Source: Paenibacillus bouchesdurhonensis
Lineage (GTDB): Bacteria > Bacillota > Bacilli > Paenibacillales > Paenibacillaceae
Length of the DNA: 64,000 nt
Assembly (NCBI RefSeq): GCF_900155685.1
Contig: NZ_LT732548.1
Location: 4,725,302 to 4,789,301 of the forward strand
Direction of reading: 5' to 3'
Position 1 is the first letter of the stretch. Every line of letters begins with the position of its first letter. The notes beneath the pieces are model-generated. The model ran no database searches. It saw only the letters and a program-made list of their open reading frames with translations, and had not been told where the DNA came from. Below, piece after piece: positions 29,997-32,839 of this stretch. Made by a program: the position numbers and the translations under genes.

Positions 29997-31258
29997 ATGA
30001 GCTGGTTCCTCCAAATTTTAGTTTGGTCTATAAAATCAATGCCTTCCTGCACATCGCTGCACAGTATGTTGACATGTCCCATTTTGCGTTTGGCGGCCGA
30101 CCCAGTCTTGCCGTATAAATGCACCTTTGGCACCAAGTTTGCTGACGCCGCAGCGTCTGGCCCTAGTGAGCCCCAGTTCCCTGCGGATACGGCTTCCGCC
30201 ACGGCCTCCACATGCTCACCGAGCACGTTCACCATGACGACCGGCGTCAGCAGCTTCGACTCACCGAGCGGTAGATTGCAAATTGCCCGGATATGCTGCT
30301 CGAATTGCGATGTCGTGCAGGCCTCCATCGTATAATGTCCCGAATTATGCGGGCGCGGCGCCAGCTCATTCACATAAATCCGTCCGTCTCCGGTCAGGAA
30401 CATTTCCACGGCGAGGAGCCCAACGGCTCCCATCGACTCCGCGATCCGTGCAGCAAGCCGTTCAGCCTCTCGCTGCACTTCCTGCTCGATTCTTGCAGGA
30501 ACGATCGATGCGTGCAAAATATTATCCACATGGATATTCTCCGCAACCGGGAACGTTCGGATTTCACCGCGCGGGCTGCGCGCTGCGATGACGGACAATT
30601 CCTTCACGAAGGGAATAAATTGCTCCAATACGAGCTCTGTGCCCGCCTGGCTTAATTCGGCATAGGCCGGGCTGATTTCCGCTTCGGAGCGGATTACCCA
30701 TTGCCCTTTGCCGTCATACCCACCCGTCGCAGTCTTCAGCACGCTGGGAATGCCCAGCCGTGCTACGGCCTCGCGCAGCTGCTGCTCGCTGCTGATCTCC
30801 GCATAGGGAGCTACAGTAGCTCCAGCCGCTTCCACGGCCCGCTTCTCGCGCAGGCGATGCTGCGTCGTATATAGAAGCTGGCTGCCTTGCGGAACATAAG
30901 ATAATTCTTCGAGCAGCGCCGCCACTTCTGCGTCCACGTTCTCGAATTCATACGTGATCACGTCGGATCGCTCGGCCAATCCCCTCGCTGCCTCCTGATC
31001 ATCGTATCCGGCGACGATTTGCTCCGCTACTTGACCGCATGGAGACGATGGCGTCGGATCGAGCGTCACAAATCGATAGCCGAGGTTGGTGCCAGCCAGC
31101 GTCATCATTCGCCCAAGCTGTCCTCCCCCAAGGACACCGATCGTCGAGCCCGGCGGAATGACGTTTCCTACGCGTTCGCTATGCCGCTGTTCAGCGCTGC
31201 CGTTCGCGGCAGCCCGGCCCTTAGATCCGTTCACTGCACCAGAATTTTCGTTCATCAC
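29993..31258 (-). CDS. purK: N5-CAIR synthetase
   Basis: A 421-residue ATP-grasp enzyme making N5-carboxyaminoimidazole ribonucleotide. It has an N-terminal tail of about 30 Ala/Ser/Gly-rich residues before [16 protein letters not shown], longer than usual; later starts are possible but ATG 31258 overlaps purE in the usual ATGA manner. Core motifs are [16 protein letters not shown] and [15 protein letters not shown]. Confidence 0.95.
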
Positions 31259-31758
31259 TTGTTCTCCCCCAGCTCAGCAGAGCTGTCTAGCACTTGGTCA
31301 CGAATACGGTCGCGGCGCTCCTGCACACGAGATGACACTTCAGAATCGAAGGCCCCGATCATTTGCGCTGCAAGCAAACCGGCGTTAATCGCGCCCGCCT
31401 TGCCGATCGCCACAGTAGCAACCGGAATTCCCCCCGGCATTTGCACGATAGAGAGCAGGGAGTCCAGACCGTTCAAGGCCGCCGACTTCACCGGGACGCC
31501 GATAACGGGAAGAATCGTCTTTGATGCGACCATACCCGGCAAATGAGCTGCTCCGCCCGCGCCTGCGATGATGACCTTTAAACCGCGCTCTGCCGCTTGC
31601 TCCGCAAATTCAAACATCAAATCCGGCGTGCGGTGTGCAGATACCACCTGCTTCTCATAAGGTATTTGAAGCTCCTCCAAAACAGCGCAAGCATGGGACA
31701 TCGTTTCCCAGTCCGATGTACTGCCCATGATTACTGCAACCTGTGCCTGTGCTGACAT
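31255..31758 (-). CDS. purE: N5-CAIR mutase
   Basis: A 167-residue class I PurE that moves the carboxylate of N5-CAIR to CAIR. It has [19 protein letters not shown] and [12 protein letters not shown]. It is the first gene of the operon, behind GAAGGAG, and follows a leader carrying a guanine riboswitch. Confidence 0.97.
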
Positions 31759-31831: not shown

Positions 31832-31884
31832 AAAAAAGTCCGGAGTATTCTGGAAAATAACGAGTATTTTCAGATTCCCGGACC
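31832..31884 (-). terminator. Riboswitch-controlled terminator upstream of purE
   Basis: On the minus strand GTCCGG...CCGGAC closes an imperfect long hairpin (with CTG/CAG and AAAATA/TATTTT inside) followed by TTTTTT. It lies between the guanine aptamer and purE. Its 5' arm can alternatively pair with the aptamer 3' end (32092-32113). Confidence 0.85.
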
Positions 31885-31986
31885 AGAGAGAATACACCGG
31901 ATTCACAACAAGCAGCATGCAGTGTGATTCCGCGTTTGTCTTATGACTACAGAAGTAAGTATGATGTCGCCACGAGCGCGCTTCCG

Positions 31987-32073
31987 TCATGCGCGTAATA
32001 TCGGCGCAGAGCTGGAAACACCCCAACCGTCTTCATCGTCTGTAATCATAACGAAGAAAGCCTCTTCTTGCAT
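31987..32073 (-). other. Possible 28-codon leader ORF in the pur leader
   Basis: ATG 32073 is preceded by AGGAAGAAGG and the frame runs 28 codons (MQEEAFFVMITDDEDGWGVS...) to TGA 31987. It lies inside the long loop between aptamer and terminator. Nothing beyond the weak ribosome binding site shows it is translated. Confidence 0.2.
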
Positions 32074-32098
32074 AACAACCTTCTTCCTGACGTATTCC

Positions 32099-32165
32099 CT
32101 CGTAGTCCGAAAATTTACGGTTTTCAGGTAGAAACTTCCGAGCCATATCCCCGGATTTATACGAG
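32099..32165 (-). ncRNA. Guanine-class purine riboswitch aptamer
   Basis: On the minus strand P1 is CTCGTA/TACGAG. P2 and P3 carry the conserved loops GATATGG and CCGTAAA, and the junction contains AGTTTCTACC. The specificity base is C (GGACTACG), as in guanine/hypoxanthine sensors, rather than the U of adenine sensors. It lies in the leader of the pur operon and should lower expression when guanine is plentiful. Confidence 0.95.
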
Positions 32166-32201
32166 ATCATTCAAACTAGCGGTCACCCGCTGTCCTTTAT
32201 C

Positions 32202-32231
32202 AGTTTAACAATCCCGCCTAGCTCATGTCAA
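32202..32231 (-). promoter_or_regulatory. Promoter of the pur operon
   Basis: On the minus strand TTGACA (32226-32231), an 18-nt spacer and TAAACT (32202-32207) with an upstream TG (TGT) extension. Transcription would begin about 30 nt before the aptamer. Confidence 0.7.
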
Positions 32232-32233
32232 CT

Positions 32234-32278
32234 AAAACACGAACATTATTAATTCCCGTAATCAGAATGTTCGTTTTT
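32234..32278 (-). promoter_or_regulatory. PurR inverted Pur box
   Basis: AAAAACGAACATT and its inverse AATGTTCGTGTTT flank an 18-nt spacer, immediately upstream of the -35 element. Each arm resembles the Bacillus PurBox AWWWCCGAACWWT. This suggests PRPP-responsive PurR repression in addition to the riboswitch. Confidence 0.82.
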
Positions 32279-32362: not shown

Positions 32363-32394
32363 TAAAAAAGAGAATGCCCCTAAGGACACTCTCC
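32363..32394 (-). terminator. Terminator of the universal stress protein gene
   Basis: On the minus strand GAGAGTG/CATTCTC with CC/GG inside forms a stem followed by TTTTTTA. It separates this gene from the pur promoter. Confidence 0.8.
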
Positions 32395-32404
32395 CTTAAA
32401 TTGC

Positions 32405-32839
32405 TTATTTAACGACCAGCACAGGCACCTTGGCATGCTGAACAACGTTATGGCTGACGCTGCCAAGGACGAATTCGCGAATGCCTCCAAGGCCGCGGCT
32501 GCCGATGACGATAATGTCGTTATTGTTCTTCTTCACATAATCCAAAATGACTTCCGCCGGCGCGCCCTGAAACAGCTCGACCTTCCCGTTCACACCTGCA
32601 GCCTGCAATCGGCTCTTCGCTTCCTCTACCGTCTTCTCAGCCAGCTCGTAGAAATCCTGATTTACGGATGCGGGCACGGGCGCATATCCCTCTGCGACAT
32701 AGAAACGTGGAAAATCAAAAACATGTACCACTTCCAGAGTAGCTTCCGGTGTTAATTTTACTAGTTCGATCGCCTTATCCAGCGCTTTGGTACCTGCCTT
32801 GGAACCATCATAAGCTGCAACAATTTTGGTAAACAACAT
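32405..32839 (-). CDS. Universal stress protein, UspA family
   Basis: A 144-residue soluble protein of the ATP-binding UspA class. It starts FTKIVAAYDGSKAGTKALDKAI and carries the nucleotide motif IVIGSRGLGGIREFVLGSVSHNV, written here in two parts: GSRGLGG and GSVSHNVVQHA. Its physiological role is not clear from context; it is a single gene with its own terminator. Confidence 0.93.
   Translation of the reverse strand: MLFTKIVAAYDGSKAGTKALDKAIELVKLTPEATLEVVHVFDFPRFYVAEGYAPVPASVNQDFYELAEKTVEEAKSRLQAAGVNGKVELFQGAPAEVILDYVKKNNNDIIVIGSRGLGGIREFVLGSVSHNVVQHAKVPVLVVK

Follow-up and report, generated by a model that had tools for sequence, protein, structure and literature searches.

How can a purine-sensing aptamer control a transcription terminator that lies far downstream of it? 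This question is raised by a leader in Paenibacillus bouchesdurhonensis, located in a window of 64,000 nt (contig NZ_LT732548.1, positions 4,725,302 to 4,789,301 of the forward strand), which is the whole stretch of DNA analyzed here. Positions refer to this window; those written from high to low are read along its minus strand (-).

The purE leader and its long-range helix

The locus is recognizable as a guanine-type purine riboswitch ahead of purE, in which the distance from the sensor to the terminator is unusually long. The aptamer model RF00167 matches at 32184-32083 (-) over its full length (model positions 1-102 of 102) with 80.9 bits and an E value of 6.2e-13, the gathering score being 37. 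The motif GACUA at 32107-32103 (-) marks the guanine type; a C occupies position 74 of J3/1 (C74), which the available text of PMC9756952 describes as the base-reading position of purine aptamers. Besides the aptamer, no Rfam family reached its gathering score in the window leader. The intrinsic terminator begins 218 nt 3' of GACUA and upstream of purE, and the wide separation pointed out in the initial annotation is thus real. Its arms are GTCCGG (31883-31878) and CCGGAC (31843-31838), followed by a U tract at 31837-31832 (-). After purE come purK, purB, purC, purS and purQ, presumably in one operon. The coordinates are collected in Table 1.

Table 1. Features of the purE leader, in window coordinates.
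Feature	Position	Strand	Remarks
PurR-box-like inverted pair ACGAACATT...AATGTTCGT	32239..32273	-	sequence
sigma-A type promoter (predicted), TTGACA-18-TAAACT, TG before second hexamer	32202..32231	-	10/12 matches
guanine-type purine aptamer (RF00167)	32083..32184	-	P1 ~32167-32160 with 32104-32097; full-model match
antiterminator 5' strand (predicted), inner CGGAC	32105..32109	-	end of P3 3' strand and J3/1 including ligand-reading C
antiterminator 5' strand (predicted), outer	32092..32101	-	GAGG of P1 3' strand; GAAUAC of clamp
spacer of 196 nt within the predicted clamp loop	31896..32091	-	variable in sequence and length; single genome copy
clamp 3' strand GUAUUC	31890..31895	-	5' of terminator arm
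antiterminator 3' strand (predicted) UCUCUGGUCCG	31879..31889	-	overlaps terminator 5' arm
intrinsic terminator GUCCGG...CCGGAC-UUUUUU	31832..31884	-	hairpin -16.9 kcal/mol, tail TTTTTTAA
purE, first gene of presumed operon	31255..31758	-	TIGR01162, 219.3 bits

The transcript probably starts near 32196, as estimated from the promoter match; two sigma-A type sites of such match quality were observed in the region, with 1.2 expected. The inverted pair further upstream is one that we take to be a PurR-box-like operator. In 39 of the 40 own-genus leaders, both of its half-site words are present within the 190 nt that precede the aptamer. The upstream gene at 32366-32839 (-) resembles a universal stress protein gene, with all matches under the curated cut-offs (best E value 3e-08), and is accompanied by a terminator-like hairpin at 32397-32366.

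The 3' end of the aptamer, together with about 10 nt of flanking sequence 3' of it, can pair with the region of the terminator 5' arm. The long-range helix has 15 standard pairs and closes a loop of 196 nt (32091-31896), just as the initial annotation had claimed for GTATTC/GAATAC, GTCCG/CGGAC and GAG/CTC. Its inner part joins CGGAC (32109-32105) to GTCCG (31883-31879); the middle part joins GAG (32101-32099) to CTC (31888-31886) and adds the pair G32098.U31889; the outer part, here called the clamp, joins GAAUAC (32097-32092) to GUAUUC (31895-31890), all on the minus strand. This complementarity is beyond chance. Extended over 26 nt, the best duplex has -30.4 kcal/mol against a mean of -15.9, and none of 100 dinucleotide shuffles reached this value. 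The minimum free energy of the whole leader has a z score of -3.66 versus 100 shuffles, and the unconstrained fold of minimum energy is the antiterminated one, which contains the long-range helix. It is favoured over the aptamer fold by 2.1 kcal/mol when the transcript ends at 31890, by 7.6 at 31878, 11.9 at 31862, 10.5 at 31845 and 7.6 kcal/mol at full length, in energies that exclude the loop-loop contacts of the aptamer. A ligand of nanomolar affinity, equivalent to roughly -11 kcal/mol, could tip the balance away from the antiterminated fold.

We consider it very likely that the leader is a guanine-I type OFF riboswitch, which controls the pur operon by transcription termination through the long-range antiterminator, with a spacer that is mainly a passive loop. 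Guanine binding, the direction of control and the strand exchange are what we infer in this scheme. When guanine is scarce, the polymerase would make the spacer and then the clamp strand GUAUUC, which would pair with GAAUAC at the outer edge of P1. From there, branch migration would run by way of P1 into J3/1 and P3 and dismantle the ligand site; the same migration would occupy the terminator 5' arm, letting transcription reach purE. With guanine bound, the aptamer would resist the migration; the clamp may still form, GUCCGG would stay available for the terminator, and transcription would stop. The clamp would keep the spacer closed, helped in many relatives by the folding of the spacer itself, and spacer length would mainly set the delay from aptamer synthesis to the decision.

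Terminator distance and spacer in related leaders

Leaders of purE were collected from 40 own-genus genomes, whose leaders are not independent of each other, and from 94 fetched of the 141 other own-family genomes. The aptamer was found by pattern in 132 leaders (40 own genus, 92 others). Dropped rows were L046 and L048, which are second copies of L037 and L039, and L067 and L119, which have no aptamer by pattern; L079 has no main terminator and was left out of later counts, which thus comprise 131 leaders (91 others). Only terminators that begin 40 nt or more after GACUA were accepted as the main one; dropping this rule changes the choice in 6 of the 131 leaders and leaves the median start the same. 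Positions of U tracts are accurate to about 2 nt.

In the 131 own-family leaders the main terminator starts at a median of 126 nt after GACUA (66-421 nt), and the median for the U tract is 169 nt. The window, with its 218 nt, is long but not extreme; L008 reaches 421 nt. Of the 131 leaders, 4, 0 and 0 have their main U tract no more than 100, 65 and 50 nt past the Rfam 3' end (9, 4 and 2 without the 40-nt rule), and some terminator-like hairpin occurs within 100 nt of this end in 40 of them. A separate scan of named loci covered 24 of 80, 12 of which carry an aptamer. One leader from a record labelled Bacillus sp. (L176, terminator at 133 nt) was grouped with the own family because of its aptamer and its PurE, which is 81% identical. 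The terminator lies at 91 nt in L171 and L172, at 133 nt in L173 and at 208 nt in L174; with 62 nt in Paenibacillus aestuarii (L177) and 72 nt in Paenibacillus validus (L196) it is closer than in most. The leader L027 has 808 nt from GACTA to the purE motif and a long stretch between terminator and purE, in which repeated AACGGTTGC-like words were noticed by eye.

The purE leaders outside the family share with those inside it an aptamer ahead of purE and a terminator 3' of the aptamer. Their distances are about 25, 27, 52, 117 and 134 nt (L141, L152, L166, L168 and L169), and the strongest terminator of Bacillus-like purE leaders lies at 56, 64, 64, 27 and 79 nt (L175, L178, L179, L182 and L184). 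The class-sample scan covered 3 own-genome and 30 class loci, of which 3 gave no pattern match and at least one was misplaced; only the own-genome xpt and five leaders with a purE start were used from it. A set of 45 xpt and permease loci left 36 for counting (14 xpt, 22 NCS2 permease) after removal of 6 without a pattern match and 3 without a terminator. The 14 own-genus xpt riboswitches have their terminator at a median of 94 nt; the distances at the NCS2 permease loci (8 to 361 nt) are unreliable.

The initial annotation had taken expression platforms of a few tens of nucleotides as the norm and the inserted segment as peculiar. This norm is too short, both for the xpt riboswitches and for the purE leaders outside the family with their 25 to 134 nt, and the segment is nothing peculiar: a long platform is the rule in the own-family sample. 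Because long platforms also occur in purE leaders outside the family, they are typical of the family, where they are commoner, and not exclusive to it.

The permease loci differ in their aptamers. In the genus, the purine aptamers that precede NCS2-type permease genes carry GGCUA instead of GACUA, in all sequences displayed among the 25 permease loci that match the pattern. The one in the genome of the window (L003 1518-1586) scores as 2dG-II with 60.5 bits (cut-off 60), and those of L278, L282, L287, L298, L305, L314 and L317 score as RF00167. The ligand of the GGCUA aptamers may differ.

The spacer is the most changeable part of the comparison among the seven closest species (PurE at least 93% identical). 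It is 34% identical among them, while the aptamer is 93% and the switch region 84% identical, and its length varies about sixfold, from 61 to 382 nt. This variation bears on a kinetic explanation, by which the long spacer gives a delay that lets guanine binding come near equilibrium, so that length is selected for sensitivity. In line with it, 66 nt is the shortest distance from the aptamer core to the start of a main terminator among the 131 leaders, albeit as a lower bound that is helped by the 40-nt rule (once this rule is lifted, the U tract is within 84 nt in 4 of 131). However, the differences in length between such close species argue against tight selection, and we regard kinetic tuning as possible but rather doubtful.

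Less probable still is a spacer that is itself regulatory, be it as a second sensor, a protein site, a leader peptide or an independent attenuator. The spacers are more stable than their shuffles overall, with a mean z of -1.9 and 98 of 129 below -1 (the two of the 131 spacers shorter than 30 nt were left out); extremes are L028 with -6.6 and L027 with -5.1, and the window spacer is only slightly stable (z -1.1). Terminator-like hairpins inside the spacer occur in 13 of 39 own-genus leaders against 5.0 expected, an unexplained excess with many cases in one subgroup. The window spacer also contains an ORF of 28 codons (32073-31987, -) with an SD-like AGAAGG upstream, and an ATG with similar first five residues is present in L010 and L011, in reading frames of different length (15 and 45 residues). 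Against these points stand the low identity and the variable length among the closest species, the lack of any Rfam family besides the aptamer in the window leader, the presence of the spacer in only one copy per genome of the window, and the family-wide count of hairpins, which is 17 of 129 against 10.6 expected. As a conserved element, a leader peptide was rejected: L006 lacks the ORF, which has two codons in L007 and is unrelated in L008 and L009. A mobile or repeated insert was likewise rejected, the spacer being single copy in the genome. Taken together, we hold an active spacer to be unlikely.

In the subgroup, L014, L016, L017, L020, L022 and L023 have a hairpin with a T run 19-49 nt after GACTA, inside the antiterminator loop, and L026, L027 and L028 have a similar loop hairpin with a T run at slightly different positions. 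This element looks like a second terminator or a pause site. A conserved second terminator close to the aptamer in relatives was the finding which, according to the initial annotation, would speak against the long-range switch. It is borne out in part, namely for this own-genus subgroup; it is absent in the window, and the family-wide count is that given above. As the true platform, a second terminator near the aptamer was rejected on these two grounds, with the own-genus excess standing against them.

Covariation of the helix and its proposed outer clamp

Next to the distances, the pairing itself was compared between leaders. The duplex beats 100 of 100 shuffles in 65 of the 132 leaders and has a rank of at most 5 in 89. 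It is not clearly above the shuffles (rank above 5) in the other 43, which are 3 of the 40 own-genus leaders and 40 of the 92 others. In 86 of the 89 leaders with a rank of at most 5 there is overlap between the pairing partner and the main terminator's 5' arm, and in these 86 the long-range loop measures 29-378 nt.

Covariation within the genus was analyzed in 40 distinct rows, whose segments were aligned without structural information. The helix is paired in 541 of 639 cells, while helices slid by 1-3 positions reach only 28-48%. Both sides are changed in 24 cells versus 10.2 in shuffles (0 of 500 reach this number) and 5-14 in slid helices; there are 20 extra pair types versus 15.1 in shuffles (2 of 500 reach this number). 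The pairs of CGGAC/GUCCG, at the end of P3 and in J3/1, are kept in 39-40 of the 40 rows. The GAG/CTC segment, which the initial annotation had included, pairs in the window, but these pairs within P1 are the least conserved of the helix, with 24, 19 and 38 of 40 rows paired. The helix pairs do not lead the ranking by APC-corrected mutual information in the own-genus alignment, where the best of them stands at 36 of 6804; the invariance of the core columns is part of the reason.

An alignment-free swap test paired the aptamer-side strand of each leader with its own distal strand or with those of other genera. The cognate duplexes have -13.4 versus -9.1 kcal/mol, and the own partner is better in 122 of 131 leaders; the remaining 9 do not prefer it. 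Because leaders within one genus are not independent, the permutations took one leader per genus; 0 of 2,000 matched the observed value in each of 50 draws. The same preference is obtained with the clamp only, in strands that leave out the terminator arm and the conserved part of P1: -10.0 versus -6.6 kcal/mol, 120 of 131 better, p at most 0.0005. A control stretch beyond the U tract gave no signal in this test (-5.15 versus -5.14 kcal/mol, better in 57 of 131).

By these tests the long-range helix covaries both within the genus and between genera, the very comparison of related pur leaders in which a lack of covariation was to have counted against it. The pairing and its conservation can be regarded as established for these sequences. 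Covariation thus supports an antiterminator that takes one strand from P1 and one from the terminator, more weakly so at the GAG/CTC pairs. It is very improbable that the complementarity is a by-product of a likeness between the 3' arm of the terminator and the 3' end of the aptamer, with no long-range switch and a terminator that is constitutive or otherwise controlled. In favour of this view, CGGAC hardly varies among the aptamers, and the pairing of this motif with GUCCG is not evidence by itself. Against it, the part of the helix that belongs to neither aptamer nor terminator shows coevolution between genera, in a test whose control was clean, and shuffles and slid helices fail.

According to the initial annotation the helix excludes both P1 and the terminator. 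Its distal half, GAAUAC/GUAUUC, need not do so. Being external to both P1 and the terminator arm, the clamp could be present in either state. When P1 and the terminator were forced in the fold, at least four clamp pairs formed in 39 of 40 own-genus leaders and in 73 of 91 other leaders; the numbers expected on the basis of shuffled spacers are 15.5 and 38.3. The window leader has 7 clamp pairs in the forced fold, and as many are given by 3 of 20 shuffled spacers, which is weak. Over the group, the folds thus predict a stem that is able to coexist with P1 and the terminator, and they do so weakly for the window alone; going by these models, the clamp may persist.

A clamp that holds both strands would let the inner helix migrate locally, so that distance hardly matters. 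Tentatively, and with somewhat more doubt than belief, we consider that the own-family purE riboswitches are a distinct clamped type with a long platform, in which a helix outside P1 and terminator persists in both states and switching, by branch migration into J3/1 and P3, hardly depends on distance, with loops of 29 to 378 nt. Two observations lower our estimate slightly, for this type as for the riboswitch as a whole: other groups have long platforms too, and a weaker hairpin is found near the aptamer in 40 of the 131 leaders. If true, such a type would leave the RNA between sensor and terminator open to almost any insertion or deletion in evolution.

Comparison with known purine riboswitches

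Published collections of purine riboswitches reach only a short distance beyond the aptamer. In the available text of Ritz 2013 (PMC3723493), members of RF00167 were extended by 100 nt and those without a terminator were dropped; in that of Hertz 2026 (PMC13273304), the sequence after the purine aptamer was limited to 45-65 nt. A survey of contiguous riboswitches (PMC12452182) scanned 50 nt past the aptamer. As far as these texts go, the models of Ritz 2013 and Hertz 2026 include covariation of P1, antiterminator and terminator, as do the own-family leaders; the difference is that the main U tract of the latter lies within 100 nt in 4 of 131 and within 65 nt in none. Terminator searches that reach 50 to 100 nt, as described in these texts, would thus miss the main terminator of most such pur switches. 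Where a weaker hairpin is within reach of a survey (40 of 131 leaders), the wrong terminator could be taken.

Among the matches listed in the open-licence literature, outside which most of the older work on pur leaders lies, no title or abstract describes such an arrangement. Close species with spacers of about 60 to 380 nt offer a natural test series for the effects of the distance, or time, from aptamer to decision. To our knowledge, this effect has been approached mainly with engineered constructs.

The closest known system is yxjA (nupG) of B. subtilis, which the available text of PMC9756952 describes as an OFF switch with a guanine aptamer, whose central helix invades P1 by strand exchange. 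Its P4 stem was seen together with P1 by probing and is also part of the predicted antiterminated conformation. The leaders studied here resemble it, as far as that text describes it, in the guanine aptamer, the predicted OFF switch by strand exchange and the P4-like clamp, in their case from sequence alone; judging from the predicted structure and the coevolution over the group, the clamp could be the counterpart of P4. There are two differences from the system as described there. The whole yxjA switch measures about 195-220 nt, whereas here the P4-like stem alone closes 196 nt, and 29-378 nt in relatives. Furthermore, the central helices of yxjA, xpt and some others do not overlap the aptamer junction; unlike these, the helix in the window does not avoid the junction and includes J3/1 and the end of P3, by pairs that nearly all own-genus leaders keep. 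The kind of purine riboswitch is therefore known, and the long platform with a clamp is a new variant of it, the function of which is predicted.
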